A DNA stretch of 36,909 bases from Pseudomonadota bacterium (lineage in GTDB: Bacteria; Verrucomicrobiota; Verrucomicrobiia; Chthoniobacterales; UBA6821), in contig RFPR01000003.1 in the NCBI GenBank assembly GCA_009928265.1, positions 1-36,909 on the forward strand, read 5' to 3'. Positions 2,630 to 21,233 of this stretch are shown here, piece after piece; positions within the stretch are counted from its first letter, which is position 1, and each line of letters begins with the position of its first letter. The position numbers were made by a program, and so were the translations under genes. The notes under the pieces are model-generated. The model was not told the origin of the DNA. It saw only the letters and a program-made list of their open reading frames with translations, and made no database searches.

Positions 2630-3184
2630 TCAGGGTGCAACAGGGCCGACCTTCAGGGAATTCTCCGTGATCACGACATGGGCACCGTTGCCCACCAAGT
2701 CATAAAGCTTGGCGACATCAGAGGATTTCATCCGGATGCAACCATAGCTGGCTGGCATGCCGATCATCGATTCCTGGGGTGTACCATGAATGTAGATGCA
2801 GCGTCTGAAAGCATTCCGGTTGTGGGACTCCAAACCATCCAGCCGGAGGATACGCGTCACGATCGGGTCGCGACCGGGAGCATTGGGCGGCAACACCTCA
2901 CCCGTCGGTTTGCGTGAATGGAAGACAGCGCCGAGGGGAGCTCCTCCCCCGATTTTCCGACGTACGCAGAGATGTCCGAGCGGTGTGGCATAGCTACCCT
3001 CACGATCCCCGGCACCAAACTTAGAAGTGGAGATCGGATAGATGGCCCCGGGCTTTCCATCGGTGAGCACGAGCATCTTCTGATCAGGAATGCTAACAAT
3101 CAGGCGGTGATGCGTGTCGGCGCAACCTGACAAGAGCAGAACGAATCCGCAAGCAAGGGCAACGGCAATGCGAGTCGGGTTCAC
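2630..3184 (-). CDS. L,D-transpeptidase (YkuD domain), putative lipoprotein; paralog of the downstream gene
   Basis: IYIHGTPQESMIGMPASYGCIRMKSSDV; lipobox-like LLLSGC; GTG start overlapping the hemB TGA stop (GTGA). Confidence 0.93.
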   Translation of the reverse strand: MNPTRIAVALACGFVLLLSGCADTHHRLIVSIPDQKMLVLTDGKPGAIYPISTSKFGAGDREGSYATPLGHLCVRRKIGGGAPLGAVFHSRKPTGEVLPPNAPGRDPIVTRILRLDGLESHNRNAFRRCIYIHGTPQESMIGMPASYGCIRMKSSDVAKLYDLVGNGAHVVITENSLKVGPVAP

Positions 3185-4494: not shown

Positions 4495-7400
4495 TTACTC
4501 CTGCACCACCTCGATCTGTTTATCGAGAAGTTGGCCTGTCAGTCGATCGATCGCTAGGTGCACCCAGAGGCGTTGCTCACCCTCCACTTGGAATTGGTCG
4601 AGACCCGTGGCCTGGGGAGGGTAGCGCCCCGTCTGCACAATCAGGTCGATCATGAGATTCCAAACGCGTGTCTGACCGGTGGATGCAAGCCCCCTGACAG
4701 AGGCCTCGCGGAAACGTTCGATGCGTATTTCAGGATCCGTTCCGTAAGTCGCAAGAACGGAGGTCAGGTCATTGGTGGAGGAAGATATCGTGTCGTCACT
4801 GAAACCGGTGTAGGAGGCGCTCCCATTGATCGTACCGCCGGAGGTATTCACCTGGGAATTCCACGATCCGGTGAGCTCCGAAATATTCATGAGGGGACCC
4901 GAGGGATAGTTGGTGGAGTGAGTCCTCGCTACCAAGGCCGAGGCAACGGCGTTGGCCAGATTGGTGGACATAGTTCCATTGACGAGGGTATTGCCGAGGT
5001 TGAACTCGTCCTTGTAGGCACCCGAGAGAATCGCCCTCAGGACCGGAACCTGGCTGGTGTTGAGATTGACCCTCCCCGCCACCATGGCCCTCGAATCCGA
5101 GGTATCATTCAGGCAGAACAGGTCGAGCAGTGCGGCGGCGCCGCTTTCAGGCACGGTAAAGTCGAGATTCCGCCATGGTGTTCCGCTGAAGACGACCCCC
5201 AACTCGGATACGGAACGGAACGGTCTATTCAGCACCACGGGGCGACCCAGATACTCGTTGGCTGCAGTGCCGCTGACGGTGGGGCTTCCGCTTCCAGAAC
5301 CATAGGTTGTCGCCGGAAATGTCGGCAAACCGGATGGATTACTGCCTGTGGAGGGTAACACCGGCATTCCGCCGCCGAACGGCACATTGGCCGACATGCC
5401 GCGACGAACCACCCCGTCGGGATCCGCAAAGTACTGACTCGCGGAGGAAGGTGGATTCTGCGGGTCGTTGGTAAAGCGGTCGACCACGCTGATGGTCACG
5501 TTGGGATTGTTCTGGGAGAGCATTCCCGGACGCACTCTGCCTGTAACCCCCGAGGGGTACCAACCGGCGGCTCCCGGACCGGAATTCGTGGCCACAAGCA
5601 TGCCGGGCAATTCGTCGGGACGGTCAGTCAGGACTCCGTTCTGCGACGCGGCGTTGGTCATAGCGGAAGAGGCAACAGCCGTACCGATCGGAGCGGACCA
5701 TCCGGCGGCGTACAGGGGAGAGACTCCCGAGGAATAGCCGCCGGGTGACGCGCCAAGAGGGAAAGCTGAGGAGGGATCGGAGGCCCCAGCGGAGCCGATC
5801 TTCAGCATCCCGAAGCGGCTGCTTCTCGGGTCAACCGCGGCGGCGCAGAGTTCCGCACCGATGGCATTTTTCGACCATGCCGAGTTGCTGTCACGATAGA
5901 ATGTCTTGTTGACGTTGTACTTGAACACCGTGGCGTTGGTGTTCGTGCCGGTGGCGGGGAGGCCGTAGCCGGTGGATGAATTGGGAGCGGCAAGGTATTT
6001 CTGGTCGTAGGTGACCCAGTTGCCGCCTGAATCCTGATACTGGAGGCTGATAAGGACGCAAGGGGAGGTGACTCCAGCAGTGCCGCCTGAAGGATACCAG
6101 ACGTATCCGGAAGGCACGATGCCATCGGTTGCCGAGGAGGGAACGCCCGCGGCGATACCTTCCGAGGGAAGCGTCGCTGTGAAGGCCATCGGCACGACCC
6201 CCATGGGGATCCCCGTAAACGACCGATAGGCTGCGCCGAGGATTCCGTTGGAGGCATGCTGAGCGGCAGGGAAAAGCGAGGTGTAGGGGCCGGGTCCACT
6301 CAGTGAACTGCCGGATGGAATTCCGGGAGTGATCAAAAGTGTCGGTTCACGGAAGAGATCACCCCGTCCGAACGGAATCATGAAACTCATGGTGGCGTTG
6401 AGCGTTGTGGCTACATTGCTTTGCCATCCGAGGGTTGAGCCACTCTGCGGTATCCACTGGGTGCCGATCGTGTAGGAAACAGGCGCCAGTGTGATGGGAT
6501 TCACCGTGGTGGCAATGAGTTGGAAATTCGTCGGGCCGTTGGTTTGGGAAGAGACCTGTGCATGGGGATTCCAGATTTCCGGCTCAAGCTGGACAACTCC
6601 CGATCCGGCGTTGGTGAGGGTGCCCCCTCTCATCGGCAACACGCTCACCGAGGGGGAGGAGTCCGCCGTCATCACCTTGCCCTCACGCACCCGGTAAAGG
6701 TAGGGAAGATCCTTCACCCCACGGTATTCGTTGGTGATCCCGCCGAAGAGGCTCCCGTCGTTAAACTGGATCCTCGGACAATAACCGTCGGGAGAGGACT
6801 GGGCGATGATGTTGGCCCCGATCTGCATGACTTGGGAATCAAGCGAGTTATCCCTCTGCTGGTTGTATCCTTCAGGAGTCGAGTTTGCGGCGCCAGGCGC
6901 CGCGTAGGCTTTGCCCAAGGACCCCGCCGTCAACCCTGCCTTGAGTAGTTCGAAAAAATCCGGATCCCGACCAAGCGCTGCAACTTGGGAAAGAGTTCTA
7001 ATCGGTTGATTGGTTCCGGATCGATACGACCAAAAACCCTGACTGTTGGCGGCGGATCCGTTGTTCCAAGCAAGACCGAAGTAACTCTGGATTTTTGCCG
7101 CAGTCCCCTGTTGAAGGATCCCCAGAGGAGCGCCCGCGTTGGTATAGGCTGTGATGACGGATGCGGGCGCCGTTGCACTCGGCCCCTGATAGGTAAGCCA
7201 TGACAGGTAACTCAGAGGAAAGCGTTTTCGGACCAAGGGGTCTCCTAAACTGGCCAAGGTTCCGTCGCTGCGGACAAAGTTCGTGGTGACACAGATCGTC
7301 AGGAAAGGGGGATTGATCTGGTTGTCCTTGCCGGCACCATCACTCCCTCCGGAGGCAACCGGCAGGATGGTCGGACGAGATGGGTCGGGAGCAATGGAGG

Positions 7401-8523
7401 GTTGATTGAGGTCGCGGCTGTAAGATGTGAGGTAGCGCAGCGCGTTGAGTGCAGCCGGAACGTTCCCCGGATCGGCCGCGCTTAGGAAGGAGATCAGTTC
7501 CTGACGGTTCACGAACTTGTGGTCGGTGATGGGAAATCCGGCTGCATTCGTACTGGTGGTATTCGTGCTGGCAGTCAGGAGGAAGCCGTTGGTCACCCCG
7601 AGCACCGCTGAGAGATAGGCTGAGGCACCGTCAGAAAATGTGTAGGAAGGATAGGTGCCGGAGGCATTTCCAGTAACGAAGTTACGCCATCCTGTCAGCG
7701 CGTTGATCTGGGCGGAGTTGAGACCAATCTGCTTCAGATCAGCAGAGAAGACCCCCGACTTTCTGGCCAAGGATGCGGAGACCGAGGCATTCGTCGCGGA
7801 GGGGTATCCCGCCACATTCGCATCAAGCAGGCCACCTTCGTCGAAAATCTGGTAGGCCAAGCGTCCGATCACCGTGTTGGGGTTGGTGAGGGACCAACGA
7901 AGAGAGGTGTTCCAGGCAACCGGATTGGAGAGACTCCTACTCAGCAAGATCCAGTCGGGCGGGACATAGGATGGCACGGGTGAGTAGTCCGAGGCGCTGT
8001 TCGTGTTGGCCCGAGCGATCAGGAGGCTTTTGTTCCATCGGTTGAGGGAGATATTGCGACCATTCCAGGAAAGATTCGTCGAGGAAGAGGAACAGGCCCT
8101 GATGATGCCGCTCTGGTAGTAGTTGGCACCGCTGTAGAAGGGGACGGATGCAGCACTCCGCTTGACGAGATTTTCCAATCCCGCACCTCCCGTAGATCCG
8201 GCCATATCCGGCAACATGGTGCTTCGATTAATGGGAACAAAGAGCACATTGGTGACTCCGCCGGCAACAAAATTGGTAAGATTGGACCCGTCGGAAACTT
8301 CCTGTGTCAGATCACTGACAACCATGTCGATGCAGCCGGAGGAAAAGATATTCTTTGCGGCGAGCGAGGCACTGGCATTGGCGCTTCCCCTCTGAAGGGA
8401 ACTCTGGGAAAAGAACGCCATCAGCAGAAAAAGCATCAGCGTGATGATGATCAGCGTGATGACAAGGGCTGTGCCGGAGTCACGACCCATTCTGCCCGTG
8501 AATGAATGGGGATATAGCCTCAT
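4495..8523 (-). CDS. Verru_Chthon cassette protein A-like: very large envelope protein with N-terminal TM (PilX/GspK-like placement)
   Basis: GRDSGTALVITLIIITLMLFLLMAFFSQSSLQRGSANASASLAAKNIFSSGCIDMVVSDL N-terminus; ~1.34k aa; last gene of a four-gene prepilin cassette. The likely ATG at 8523 overlaps the upstream TGA (ATGA); the ORF track extends to 8613. Confidence 0.8.
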   Translation of the reverse strand: MRLYPHSFTGRMGRDSGTALVITLIIITLMLFLLMAFFSQSSLQRGSANASASLAAKNIFSSGCIDMVVSDLTQEVSDGSNLTNFVAGGVTNVLFVPINRSTMLPDMAGSTGGAGLENLVKRSAASVPFYSGANYYQSGIIRACSSSSTNLSWNGRNISLNRWNKSLLIARANTNSASDYSPVPSYVPPDWILLSRSLSNPVAWNTSLRWSLTNPNTVIGRLAYQIFDEGGLLDANVAGYPSATNASVSASLARKSGVFSADLKQIGLNSAQINALTGWRNFVTGNASGTYPSYTFSDGASAYLSAVLGVTNGFLLTASTNTTSTNAAGFPITDHKFVNRQELISFLSAADPGNVPAALNALRYLTSYSRDLNQPSIAPDPSRPTILPVASGGSDGAGKDNQINPPFLTICVTTNFVRSDGTLASLGDPLVRKRFPLSYLSWLTYQGPSATAPASVITAYTNAGAPLGILQQGTAAKIQSYFGLAWNNGSAANSQGFWSYRSGTNQPIRTLSQVAALGRDPDFFELLKAGLTAGSLGKAYAAPGAANSTPEGYNQQRDNSLDSQVMQIGANIIAQSSPDGYCPRIQFNDGSLFGGITNEYRGVKDLPYLYRVREGKVMTADSSPSVSVLPMRGGTLTNAGSGVVQLEPEIWNPHAQVSSQTNGPTNFQLIATTVNPITLAPVSYTIGTQWIPQSGSTLGWQSNVATTLNATMSFMIPFGRGDLFREPTLLITPGIPSGSSLSGPGPYTSLFPAAQHASNGILGAAYRSFTGIPMGVVPMAFTATLPSEGIAAGVPSSATDGIVPSGYVWYPSGGTAGVTSPCVLISLQYQDSGGNWVTYDQKYLAAPNSSTGYGLPATGTNTNATVFKYNVNKTFYRDSNSAWSKNAIGAELCAAAVDPRSSRFGMLKIGSAGASDPSSAFPLGASPGGYSSGVSPLYAAGWSAPIGTAVASSAMTNAASQNGVLTDRPDELPGMLVATNSGPGAAGWYPSGVTGRVRPGMLSQNNPNVTISVVDRFTNDPQNPPSSASQYFADPDGVVRRGMSANVPFGGGMPVLPSTGSNPSGLPTFPATTYGSGSGSPTVSGTAANEYLGRPVVLNRPFRSVSELGVVFSGTPWRNLDFTVPESGAAALLDLFCLNDTSDSRAMVAGRVNLNTSQVPVLRAILSGAYKDEFNLGNTLVNGTMSTNLANAVASALVARTHSTNYPSGPLMNISELTGSWNSQVNTSGGTINGSASYTGFSDDTISSSTNDLTSVLATYGTDPEIRIERFREASVRGLASTGQTRVWNLMIDLIVQTGRYPPQATGLDQFQVEGEQRLWVHLAIDRLTGQLLDKQIEVVQE

Positions 8524-9386
8524 CGTTTCAGCGGGAACGTCCTGATGTACAGGCGGGCCCTGTTGGCGAGGAGAGGGGGAAGACCATTTGAGAGAGTGAG
8601 ATTGGTTTCCCACCCGTTCAGGGGGATTCCCCCATTTGTCATGCAGTCCTGAAGCAAAGCGCTCATGTTACTCAACTGCGAGGGAGGGACGGTAGCCTTA
8701 CTTGAAGGATCCAGCAATCCCATGGCGACCACCACGGCGGCCACATTCGCAAGACCATGCCTGGGCTTGGAAGGATTGCCTAGATAGGCATAGGAGTTGA
8801 CCTGGTTGGTGCTGCCGTCGGCATTAACGGTTCCCGGTTTCATCATGAGGCCGATCTCCATGCGAAAGACCGCGGGTCCCACCACATGCCAGTAGTTGGT
8901 AGCATTTCCAAGGCACTGCGGGAGATTTGTCGTGTTGAATCCCGTGACGGACACGTTAGTGGTCAGGAAAGGGAGATCATCCCAACCCTTCGTCATCGCC
9001 ATCCGTGAAAGCTGCTGATTGGTCACCATGTATCCAACCATCGAGAGGGGACTCAATCCTCCCGTCGATCCTGAATAACCGGGAGCTTGGCTGTAAAAGT
9101 AAAATTGGTCGTTGCGGTCACCTCCCCCGCTCCCATCTTGGGGAAGCCCCAGAAAAAGAGTATCCACATCCTGCCTGATCACCATGGAGGTGATGTCAGC
9201 GTCCATCCTGTCGAAGACGGAGCGCGCCTCGGCGTCCATGTCGAGACGGCGCTTCATCATGGCTGAGGAGGAGGATGTCGCTCCGATGGTCTGAAAAAGG
9301 AGCAGGACCACCATGCTGAGCACGGCAAGCGCCACCAGCATCTCCAGCAGGGTGAATCCCCGAGCGGGATCCACCCCGGACTTCAT
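8520..9386 (-). CDS. Verru_Chthon cassette protein C-like, prepilin-type N-terminal methylation protein
   Basis: MKSGVDPARGFTLLEMLVALAVLSMVVLLLFQTIGATSSSSAMMKRRLDMDAEARSVFDRMDADI; class III prepilin signal. ORF track start (9641) lies inside the upstream gene; ATG at 9386 is the more likely start. Confidence 0.82.
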   Translation of the reverse strand: MKSGVDPARGFTLLEMLVALAVLSMVVLLLFQTIGATSSSSAMMKRRLDMDAEARSVFDRMDADITSMVIRQDVDTLFLGLPQDGSGGGDRNDQFYFYSQAPGYSGSTGGLSPLSMVGYMVTNQQLSRMAMTKGWDDLPFLTTNVSVTGFNTTNLPQCLGNATNYWHVVGPAVFRMEIGLMMKPGTVNADGSTNQVNSYAYLGNPSKPRHGLANVAAVVVAMGLLDPSSKATVPPSQLSNMSALLQDCMTNGGIPLNGWETNLTLSNGLPPLLANRARLYIRTFPLKR

Positions 9387-9387
9387 G

Positions 9388-10083
9388 TCAGAAATCCTTT
9401 CCGCATTCGCGGTCGTCATCGCAACGGTCGTCACGGTCACGGCGGCTGCGACGGTCGTCGTCACAGTGGTCATCGTCATCGTCGCAACTTCCGGACTTGG
9501 TGTAATTCTTGTCGCTGTCCGATTCGCCGCAACTGGATGATCCGCTTCCATTGGTGGCACTTTGATTTGGTTGGTAGACAACCTTCGCACGGTAAACGCC
9601 TCCCAACTGCATCGCACGGTTAAATGACGTGACCGTTTCAACAGCCCCCTGCGGTTTATCAGCCGAAGACTGAGGCGGCCAGAAGACCTTGATCCGGGCC
9701 GTGGTCAAGGATGAGACCGTGGTGGACGGGGCGTTGGTGATGGACACGGTGACACCGAACCTGGCTTTTCCAGGATCGGACACCATGCTGCCGTCTCCGG
9801 AGAGGAAGAGGCTGGTGGCCCCTCCCTGCCCTGAGGCCGGCAGAGTAATCCCGTACTTAGGCGAAGTCGCCGAAGAGGACGGTGTATATCTGAGATCGGA
9901 AGCCACTGACGAGAGCATCGTCGCGCAGGCGGTCTGCTCCGTGGTATCCCTCGCGATGCGGATGCCGGCGGGAAGCAGGCCCTGCATCGTGGCGACGCAG
10001 ACGCCGGTGATCCCGACAGCAAGACAGACTTCGACGAGGGAGAACGCTCCCCGCGATGTCTTTGCTGACTTTTTCGTTTTCAT
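9388..10083 (-). CDS. Verru_Chthon cassette protein B-like, prepilin-type protein with Asp/Arg/Cys-rich C-terminal tail
   Basis: SRGAFSLVEVCLAVGITGVCVATMQGLLPAGIRIARDTTEQTACATMLSSVASDL; tail SCDDDDDHCDDDRRSRRDRDDRCDDDRECGKDF. Confidence 0.82.
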   Translation of the reverse strand: MKTKKSAKTSRGAFSLVEVCLAVGITGVCVATMQGLLPAGIRIARDTTEQTACATMLSSVASDLRYTPSSSATSPKYGITLPASGQGGATSLFLSGDGSMVSDPGKARFGVTVSITNAPSTTVSSLTTARIKVFWPPQSSADKPQGAVETVTSFNRAMQLGGVYRAKVVYQPNQSATNGSGSSSCGESDSDKNYTKSGSCDDDDDHCDDDRRSRRDRDDRCDDDRECGKDF

Positions 10084-10120
10084 GTTCTTTGGGGGTTGAG
10101 GGTTTTCTACTCGGTTAAGA

Positions 10121-10855
10121 TCAGGGGCCGGGCCGCAATGCCTTCACGATGCCGTTAACGGCGTCGACCTCGACAACGGCGGTGTCCAGAGAGTTCACGG
10201 CGACCATCCCTCCTTTGGAGGGACGAAGCGCTAGATGGAGGCCTTCCGGCAGTGCTTGGGAACCTGGGAGTGAAGCGGATCCCCTCGGATCGAACCGGAT
10301 GACCGCAACGGAGAATCCCGGGATCGTGGCCTTGGTATTCACCGGCCATCCGAAAGGCGCATTCACCGGGGTAACGCCCAGAAGGATCGAATTGGTCAAC
10401 ATGGCTGCATTGCCGAACGGGAGACTTTGATCCAGATGAAGATTCTCCATCTGCTGAAGCTTGCCGATCGGCATCAGATTGGAGGGGGCAATAACGGACG
10501 AGGGATCGGAGGGGTTGTAGCCCGGCGTGCCGTCCTTGGTTGCCACGGTCCCTATCCAGATTTTTCCGACACCGGATGTTGCCGGCAGCTTGCCAGCCGG
10601 TTGCATACCGTCTGATTCAAAGAAACCCACATAAACGTAGGTGTTGAGCTGCATCGCCTGAGAGCGGGCCAACTCGAGGATGGACTGCATGTCGGAAACC
10701 CTTCGGTTCATCGCAATTCCACCAGTAATTCCCCAGAGGGCTGTGATGGAGGCCCATGCCATCCATGCCATGATGTTGATGACCACAAGCAACTCGAGGA
10801 GCGAAAACCCAGCACGGCGGTCTCTGGAACCGGAAGTGTGGAAACTGATTCTCAT
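10121..10855 (-). CDS. Verru_Chthon cassette protein D-like, prepilin-type protein
   Basis: RRAGFSLLELLVVINIMAWMAWASITALWGITGGIAMNRRVSDMQSILELARSQAMQLNTYVYVGF; start uncertain (ORF track extends to 11041). Confidence 0.82.
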   Translation of the reverse strand: MRISFHTSGSRDRRAGFSLLELLVVINIMAWMAWASITALWGITGGIAMNRRVSDMQSILELARSQAMQLNTYVYVGFFESDGMQPAGKLPATSGVGKIWIGTVATKDGTPGYNPSDPSSVIAPSNLMPIGKLQQMENLHLDQSLPFGNAAMLTNSILLGVTPVNAPFGWPVNTKATIPGFSVAVIRFDPRGSASLPGSQALPEGLHLALRPSKGGMVAVNSLDTAVVEVDAVNGIVKALRPGP

Positions 10856-19140: not shown

Positions 19141-19719
19141 TCAGGCAATTACCCGGGCCTTACGCTGTGTCAAGGCTTGCTCCATCACCACAAAGAAGGC
19201 TGCAGAGAGCAGATCCCCCGCGAGACTGTTACGAAAGAAGGTCCAAGTCGGGGGGTAGCCAGGAAGCCCTACCGTCAGCGCCTGCACCCATCCCGCAAAA
19301 GTCTGCGGATAGGCGGTGAGGCCAGACCAGCTTCCCGTATTGGTCACCACATAGAAAAAGACAGATGCAGCGAGTGTGCCGCCCAGAACAGGAATCAATC
19401 CGGTGCGACCCCGGAGGCTCCAACCGATCGCGACAGCCACAAGGTAGCCGGGCAGAGTCCAGAGGAGTTGAGCGGATAAGAGGGGTGCTCCGTAGTGGAG
19501 ATTGAGCAAGAGATCAGAAACCAGCAGAGCCACCACCGGCACAGCCAGACCGATCCATCCCGGCAGGAAGAGAGCCCCGCAAAGGGCCGAAGCCATCAGC
19601 GGCGAGAAATTCGGCAGGACCTCAGGCGCCACCTCAACGCGGAGGACACGGAAGAACGTGCCTAGCAGGAGAAGTGTAAAAGCTGTCAGGAGTGCGGGAG
19701 AGGCAAGGAATCTGTTCAT
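19141..19719 (-). CDS. Membrane protein, DUF6580-like (ECF S-component-like topology)
   Basis: NFSPLMASALCGALFLPGWIGLAVPVVALLVSDLLLNLHYG and repeated TM segments. Confidence 0.6.
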   Translation of the reverse strand: MNRFLASPALLTAFTLLLLGTFFRVLRVEVAPEVLPNFSPLMASALCGALFLPGWIGLAVPVVALLVSDLLLNLHYGAPLLSAQLLWTLPGYLVAVAIGWSLRGRTGLIPVLGGTLAASVFFYVVTNTGSWSGLTAYPQTFAGWVQALTVGLPGYPPTWTFFRNSLAGDLLSAAFFVVMEQALTQRKARVIA

Positions 19720-20465
19720 TGTGGCTTGATCATATTGGGATCGAGTCGACCGATGTTGGCACCAGGCATCCGGGAATCAAGAGATCCCGGCATCATTGGA
19801 AGGCATCCCGCGGAGCCATCAGCGAATCCGACCATCGCCTGGCCGCCGACACGGAAGTGAACGGTCCTTTCGGTGGCGTTGAAATAATAGAACTCCTCGA
19901 CCATTGGTTTTTTGGCAGAGGCAGGTGCCTGGAAGGTATTCACCTGGGCACAGGTCGCAAAGACGGGGATCTTTCCCGGACTCGATAAGGCCAACTGGCT
20001 CTTTCCCTGCAAAAGAAGGTTGTACCCGTAGGCGAAATGGGTGGAGCCATACTTCGGCTTGAAGGTGTTGCCTGCCCTAGAAAACGAGGGGTCGACGGCC
20101 ATTCCTCCAGAAGCGGCGATGTAGGGGCCGAGCGGACCTTGATTGAGATCTAGCCACCTCTTGCCCTCAGGAGCGGAGAGACTAGCGGAAGGTTCGAGCC
20201 CAAACCACCACTGGGTTCCACCATTGGTTCTGGAACTGTACTGCCAGTAAACCATGCCATTCTCAGCAAGATACGATTGGGCTGCAGCATTCAACTGGGC
20301 GATGACATGGGCGCTTGTAGCATCCGTTGAGGAGGCGTAGACACTCCGTACTGCGGGAAAAAGCAGTGCTGCAAGTACGGCCACAATGGCTAACCCAACA
20401 AGCAGTTCAAGAAGAGTGAAGGCTCCCCGCCTAGCGGAATTCAGGATTTCTTTAAGATTTTCCAT
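19716..20465 (-). CDS. Prepilin-type N-terminal cleavage/methylation domain protein
   Basis: MENLKEILNSARRGAFTLLELLVGLAIVAVLAALLFPAV; C-terminal VHFRVGGQAMVGFADGSAG. Confidence 0.9.
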   Translation of the reverse strand: MENLKEILNSARRGAFTLLELLVGLAIVAVLAALLFPAVRSVYASSTDATSAHVIAQLNAAAQSYLAENGMVYWQYSSRTNGGTQWWFGLEPSASLSAPEGKRWLDLNQGPLGPYIAASGGMAVDPSFSRAGNTFKPKYGSTHFAYGYNLLLQGKSQLALSSPGKIPVFATCAQVNTFQAPASAKKPMVEEFYYFNATERTVHFRVGGQAMVGFADGSAGCLPMMPGSLDSRMPGANIGRLDPNMIKPQ

Positions 20466-21172
20466 CTGGCGAACAGAAGCACAGTGAGGGATAGAAGACA
20501 CAAGAGGCCGACTCTTGGCTCGGGAATCACTTGGGGATCCAATCCGTAATAGGTACCGAAAGTCACAGGCTGAACGATTCCGTCAGTGTCGGTGTAGTAA
20601 TGAGTGTCGCTCACTGCACCAGAATATGAAAACGGACTGATTGTCCACCCGTCATAGGATCCGTTGGAAATCCAGCGGGTGGCAGCATAACTCGGAGAGA
20701 CGATCCATGGTCCCGATGGCACCTCGAAGGAAAACGACCCATTGTCACCGTACTCCACAAACTCGCTCCCACCCGAGATCCAGTAGGTCCATACCGGAGA
20801 ATCCAGGGGGTCGACACTTACGGACTTGGTTCCGCCGATCGTGAAGTCCGTGAAGAGTCCATAGGCACCCGTGCTGACACTGAGAGCGTAGTCGGTTCCC
20901 TGTGATGCTGAGAGAACTCCCTGAAAAAGATCTTCTCCCGACCAGTTGGTGCCGGTCAGTGGATTGAGGAGTCCGTCGTAGTGCCATGCGTAGCAGATCG
21001 GGTCATTCGACAACGTGGACTCATTAAAGATCAGGTAGGAGACATTCGATCCGCTCCCGAGATTCACCGTAACAGGCTCTTGCCCTGTGATCACCGCAGC
21101 ATGGACGTGGTACAGACCCAAGAGAAGAGATGCCGATAGGAAAAGTAGGTTTTTTATATTTTTAATCAACAT
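20441..21172 (-). CDS. PEP-CTERM sorting-domain protein (exosortase substrate)
   Basis: N-terminal signal MLIKNIKNLLFLSASLLLGLYHVHA; C-terminal VIPEPRVGLLCLLSLTVLLFARWKILKKS (PEP + TM + basic tail). ATG at 21172 preferred over the ORF-track start 21226. Confidence 0.85.
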   Translation of the reverse strand: MLIKNIKNLLFLSASLLLGLYHVHAAVITGQEPVTVNLGSGSNVSYLIFNESTLSNDPICYAWHYDGLLNPLTGTNWSGEDLFQGVLSASQGTDYALSVSTGAYGLFTDFTIGGTKSVSVDPLDSPVWTYWISGGSEFVEYGDNGSFSFEVPSGPWIVSPSYAATRWISNGSYDGWTISPFSYSGAVSDTHYYTDTDGIVQPVTFGTYYGLDPQVIPEPRVGLLCLLSLTVLLFARWKILKKS

Positions 21173-21233
21173 ATGTGTATTTGATGATATGTTTTTAAAG
21201 AGGTCAACCCTTTTGATTTCTATCAAAGAAAAT

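Follow-up and report, generated by a model that had tools for sequence, protein, structure and literature searches.

The window analyzed here is the 36.9-kb contig C113 (36,909 nucleotides) of a 2.22-Mb, 93% complete freshwater verrucomicrobial draft genome whose closest named relatives are Spartobacteria MAGs. It harbors a four-gene cassette in the order D-B-C-A, entirely on the minus strand (Table 1), and reading the DNA bore out the initial annotation of this cassette in its coordinates and prepilin signals. The latter are present in all three small proteins for which they had been claimed (AGFSLLELLVV in D, GAFSLVEVCLAV in B and GFTLLEMLVAL in C), while the fourth and giant protein, A, reaches its 1342 aa from an ATG overlapping the C stop (a 1372-aa ORF uses an upstream GTG). 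Translational coupling, proposed for the cassette, holds for two of the three junctions: a single nucleotide separates the B stop (TGA) from the ATG of C, and C and A overlap as ATGA, but D and B lie 37 nt apart and are not coupled. All four frames are intact across 6.3 kb, and scans for promoters and terminators gave chance-level results only.

Table 1 Features of the D-B-C-A cassette and its proteins (window coordinates)
Feature	Position	Strand	Description
Gene D	10121..10855	-	Prepilin, GspH-like; first gene of the cassette; 244 aa
Gene B	9388..10083	-	Prepilin, GspI-like; 231 aa
B, C-terminal tail	9391..9567	-	59 aa, 5 Cys, 19 Asp/Glu
Gene C	8520..9386	-	Prepilin, GspJ-like; 288 aa
Gene A	4495..8523	-	Giant GspK homologue; 1342 aa
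A, membrane/filament helix, residues 14-78	8290..8484	-	PilX/GspK-type, no Glu5; GTALVITLIIITLMLFLLMAFF
A, first GspK-homologous block, residues 218-280	7684..7872	-	GRLAYQIFDEGGLLDAN; aligned to GspK 86-139
A, insertion relative to GspK, residues ~300-1090	5254..7626	-	~25 residues at this place in GspK
A, beta-rich module within the insertion, residues 575-930	5734..6801	-	AF2 mean pLDDT 66, pTM 0.74
A, second GspK-homologous block, residues 1098-1225	4849..5232	-	RPFRSVSELG...AGRVNLNT; aligned to GspK 164-216
A, C-terminal beta meander, residues 1285-1342	4498..4671	-	Strands in the model of a relative; strongly conserved

The cassette lies between recO and the pair tRNA-Glu and hemB (gene names read from the sequence). 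Its neighborhood is one of housekeeping genes (recO, hemB, metH), with no sugar genes near it and neither gspG nor any other gsp gene next to it, the ordinary GspG-H-I-J-K set of the genome lying separately on contig C26. Beside hemB, two adjacent paralogous small envelope-type proteins (1919-2575 and 2630-3184) are kept side by side across the genus. Elsewhere in the window, a lone prepilin (19716-20501; 28 bits with TIGR02596, below the cut-off) adjoins a DUF6580 membrane protein and a PEP-CTERM-like secreted protein (20441-21226).

The initial annotation had matched the locus to the TIGRFAM-defined Verru_Chthon cassette, and the HMM search that it proposed matched all four proteins to the corresponding NCBIfam models (TIGR02596/98/99/600), with every score below the curated cut-off: 20.1 bits for D with TIGR02596 (cut-off 70), 47.3 for B with TIGR02598 (51.4), 24.5 for C with TIGR02599 (256.5) and 23.5 for A with TIGR02600 (332.3; residues 47-111 of the longer ORF). 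Except for B, these matches cover little beyond the N-terminus. Past the membrane helix, profile comparison aligned A with Verru_Chthon_A over 209 columns (Prob 98.3, E 1.1e-14), and by this measure the canonical and the D-B-C-A-type A subfamilies are homologous. In a tree of A proteins, canonical (i.e., TIGR02600-scoring) and D-B-C-A-type proteins split at 100/100 along a branch of 2.55, and the A of the window falls in the latter, separate clade, where it groups with those of three congeners at 100/100. Thus, the family assignment stands in that the four gene types are adjacent on one strand and A is homologous, but not in its scores or in the placement of A, and the window cassette represents a distinct subfamily of order D-B-C-A. 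Canonical cassettes in multi-copy genomes are ordered A-B-C-D or B-C-A-D; the genome studied here also carries one of these, apparently split across contigs C25 and C46 (TIGR02600 261 and 462 bits), and its contig C91 bears a third cassette, a divergent one.

Resemblance to the minor pseudopilins GspH/I/J/K, with A in the place of GspK, had likewise been suggested, and profile-profile comparison backs it. D, B, C and A were compared one to one with profiles of the ordinary T2SS pseudopilins of the same order rather than through database searches (a first HMM sorting of G/H/I/J mixed the families, and gene order was used instead to tell them apart). With the membrane helix kept or removed, the best scores lie on the diagonal: D with GspH among G/H/I/J, B with GspI (106 columns) and C with GspJ (98 columns), the similarity being weak once the helix is removed. 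As D, B and C score best with H, I and J in turn, D-B-C-A corresponds to H-I-J-K in order. Among single models, C scored 32 bits with gspJ TIGR01711 and D fell just short with Pfam GspH (20.4, cut-off 21); no cassette protein exceeded the cut-offs of the gspH/I/J models or Pfam T2SSK. Full-length A aligned with GspK through the membrane helix alone, and the match requires the insertion to be removed. With both insertion and helix taken out, the two aligned colinearly with an hhalign score of 59.4 (Prob 93.4); by comparison, reversed columns scored 17.9, none of 60 block shuffles exceeded 35.8 and no other pseudopilin exceeded 25.0. Homology extends over both conserved blocks, YA.IYDEGGLLDxN of A pairing with GYSVVLSDDSGLINPN of GspK in the first, which is conserved in all 17 aligned A proteins, and RPFRSVAELG...AGRVNLNT with APFTSPEEMT...GKVNLLHAP in the second; a profile search of A against PDB sequences returned nothing relevant. 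By these comparisons, A is a GspK homologue with ca. 800 extra residues between two conserved halves, and it is far larger, as had been noted (the GspK of the same genome has 315 aa). Of 58 related genomes, 49 have a GspK, usually in a single copy, and with the ordinary set on C26 the cassette genes do not fall into an ordinary, complete T4P or T2SS minor-pilin family.

The insertion is the least conserved part of A, a protein that is 31-60% identical to its relatives with motifs conserved. In the structure predicted for a full-length relative of 1087 aa (AF2, pTM 0.83), the N-terminus forms a helix of 61 residues and the C-terminus a beta meander. Foldseek searches of the beta-rich module against PDB and viral structures gave no match with E ≤ 0.001, and searching with the full model of the relative gave no significant one either; weak similarities to C2, CBM9 and p53-like folds were set aside, so no carbohydrate-binding fold is demonstrated for the extra module. 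Cys-rich repeat tails of differing sequence also end the B proteins of the three nearest relatives and are absent from other B proteins. In the four congeners (the window and loci L201, L202 and L203), the tails contain Cys and are of low complexity and differing make-up, i.e., acidic in the window, with GYD/GYN pentapeptide-like repeats in G010 and G015 and with Gly-Ser-Cys repeats in G007.

A check for T2SS/T4P genes found the filament machinery outside the cassette: one prepilin peptidase, a secretin with a GspE neighbor, two further PilB-type (MshEN-bearing) ATPases (hence three GspE/PilB-type ATPases in total), four PilT-type ATPases, two GspF/PilC platform proteins, and pilins. Having no machinery of its own, the cassette would have to borrow that of the cell, and we infer that it uses the shared T4P/T2SS apparatus. 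Platform genes beside the cassettes of the three nearest relatives are ca. 55% identical to the PilC-type platform of this genome (contig C261) and ca. 29% to the one on C30.

The order D-B-C-A recurs in at least 45 of 76 named loci, all of them bearing verrucomicrobial record titles, and a possible start lies within 5 nt of the preceding stop at 35 (D-B), 24 (B-C) and 30 (C-A) of 45 junctions; this recurrence, mostly with overlaps or gaps of up to 5 nt, makes the cassette more than a chance arrangement. Relatives were absent from viral contigs. Counting copies, as had been advised, we found that, among 147 genomes of the order, 103 have a B homologue and several have at least 24 each, and a search of ten genomes gave, for several of them, 12 to 43 TIGR02600 match pieces, fragments included. 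Some soil MAGs (L181, L195, L184) have cassettes in tandem and A genes that are divided between two frames. A fifth gene, E, encoding a secreted protein of ca. 250 aa with no Pfam family, directly follows A in ca. 39 loci (e.g., L154:12248-13054 and L128:11843-12529), mostly with an ATGA overlap; it is absent from 32 loci with room for it and from the window.

The chromosomal slots of these cassettes differ between species. In the congeners G007, G010 and G015, a sister cassette adjoins a platform gene, the order in G007, read across two contigs, being glgB-pilin-ilvB-cassette-platform-priA. The genome studied here has an intact glgB-pilin-ilvB-priA without a cassette, ilvB and priA being 116 nt apart (contig C147, 1461-8627, which lacks both the cassette and the platform gene of G007), and its cassette occupies the recO/tRNA-Glu/hemB slot. 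In another congener, G011, that slot is occupied by a D-B-C-A cassette whose A belongs to another clade (contig C50, 3154-10085; L239). The presence of different cassettes in one slot of two species points to exchange or repeated insertion; a single insertion event for the recO-hemB slot was dropped, as just two genomes have recO beside the cassette.

Related cassettes are enriched beside glycan-degradation genes in relatives. Pfam matches of the neighboring ORFs comprise LacI/sugar-binding regulators, MFS_2 sugar transporters and PATR repeats, together with GH35, GH38, GH43, GH106, GH130, alginate lyase, heparinase and acetylesterase. At least 25 of 196 cassette neighbors match glycoside hydrolases, lyases, esterases or deacetylases, against none of 100 control ORFs from the same genomes among the matches listed for these (the top 25 families, to about E 1e-12). 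The corresponding hypergeometric figure (2e-5) counts genes, which within one locus are not independent, and is a guide only.

Taken together, we postulate that the cassette is a second, specialized minor-pilin tip complex whose likely job is polysaccharide capture by interchangeable tips, a reading to which we assign a probability of roughly 58%. That it is a tip complex at all seems very probable, and the function, formerly given as unknown, would thereby narrow to the tip of a filament, with glycan capture as its leading, unproven role; taken alone, that role would stand slightly short of even odds. The GspH-I-J-K tip complex crowns the pseudopilus (PMC6211770), and by analogy D, B, C and A should prime a filament and form its cap, A taking the outermost position. 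D, B and C would be processed by the prepilin peptidase, A would be exported into the inner membrane too, and all four would come together there in a complex that first primes and later caps the filament. The filament itself would consist of shared major pilin and be built by the ATPase, platform and secretin of the cell's own T4P or T2SS. At the extreme tip, A would display its 800-residue extra region to contact the outside, and interchangeable tips of this kind might capture particular polysaccharides. A may be a modular tip pilin, the insert being seen in its sequence and the tip location suggested by its homology with GspK. Polysaccharide capture appears the most likely task given the multiple copies, the poor conservation of the extra region, the moves between slots and the sugar-locus neighbors in relatives, where LacI regulators, glycoside hydrolases and sugar transporters lend it support. 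It is favored, too, by known tip pilins that bind DNA or glycans and by pilus-like genes linked to mucin uptake: ComZ of Thermus, a large tip pilin that serves as a DNA receptor, has a solenoid inserted (PMC6561018), PilC/PilA of Streptococcus sanguinis form a glycan-binding minor-pilin tip complex (PMC9934059) and the Akkermansia mul genes are needed for mucin uptake (PMC13174399). Counting against this reading are the housekeeping surroundings of the window copy, the failure of the extra module to match any fold significantly and the weak similarity of B, C and D to I, J and H outside the membrane helix.

Instead of catching glycans, the cassette could cap a T2SS pseudopilus and export a cognate substrate, e.g., a PATR-repeat protein, whose gene often lies upstream, the secreted E or the enzymes of the locus. 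The closest matches are indeed T2SS pseudopilins, 15 loci encode large autotransporter-repeat proteins close to the cassette and about half of the loci have an E coupled to A; the window cassette, however, has neither a PATR nor an E gene alongside, its three nearest relatives have as neighbors a pilin and a platform closer to the PilC type of C261 than to that of C30, and a full ordinary GspG-K set is already present, all of which leads us to regard such a dedicated secretion tip as unlikely. Considerably less probable are general T4P minor pilins that lack glycan specificity and serve twitching, surface adhesion or DNA uptake, for although the genome encodes PilB, PilT, PilC and pilins, and ComZ sets a precedent for a large DNA-receptor tip pilin (PMC6561018), a single general-purpose tip would not be expected to have dozens of divergent copies per genome or sugar-locus neighbors. 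That the cassette is missing from the glgB-pilin-ilvB-priA slot and found in the recO-hemB slot might be accounted for if it were a mobile or decaying copy of the pseudopilin operon with no present function in this species, yet the four intact frames and an A that keeps its motifs and its identity to relatives make this highly improbable.

Going beyond polysaccharide capture by this one complex, Verrucomicrobia might carry a whole library of interchangeable tips, with a cassette of four or five genes for each polysaccharide locus, the cassettes being swapped between slots, served by a single shared filament machine and fulfilling the role that SusD-like glycan-capture proteins have in Bacteroidota, an extension that we consider rather doubtful. 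The Verru_Chthon families have been named without a stated function, no mention of them was found in the open-access literature searched, and their sets are among the most amplified in Verrucomicrobia (more than 20 copies in several genomes). The colinearity with GspH-I-J-K and the giant GspK provide a concrete structural and functional hypothesis for these highly amplified gene sets and, if the glycan link is true, would account for substrate capture in a major polysaccharide-degrading phylum.

Among known systems, the window cassette shares with the Verru_Chthon cassette the four gene types and an A that is homologous between subfamilies, and differs in its D-B-C-A order (canonically A-B-C-D or B-C-A-D) and its separate A clade. 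With the T2SS GspH-I-J-K set (the XcpU-V-W-X tip complex, PMC6211770) it has in common the gene order and the gene-by-gene best profile matches, whereas its A is 1342 aa long against 315 aa for the GspK of the same genome, gspG does not adjoin it, and it belongs to a multicopy type and is accompanied in its genome by a full ordinary set. In Akkermansia, MUL1/MUL2 are also verrucomicrobial pilus-like proteins linked to glycan uptake, but MUL2 consists of PilM plus a pilin-like protein, and the portion of that paper accessible to us names no Verru_Chthon genes (PMC13174399). ComZ (PMC6561018) and PilC/PilA of S. sanguinis (PMC9934059) carry an extra module on a tip-located minor pilin, as A would if it sits at the tip, whereas A combines a GspK-type backbone with a much larger, unmatched beta-rich insert.
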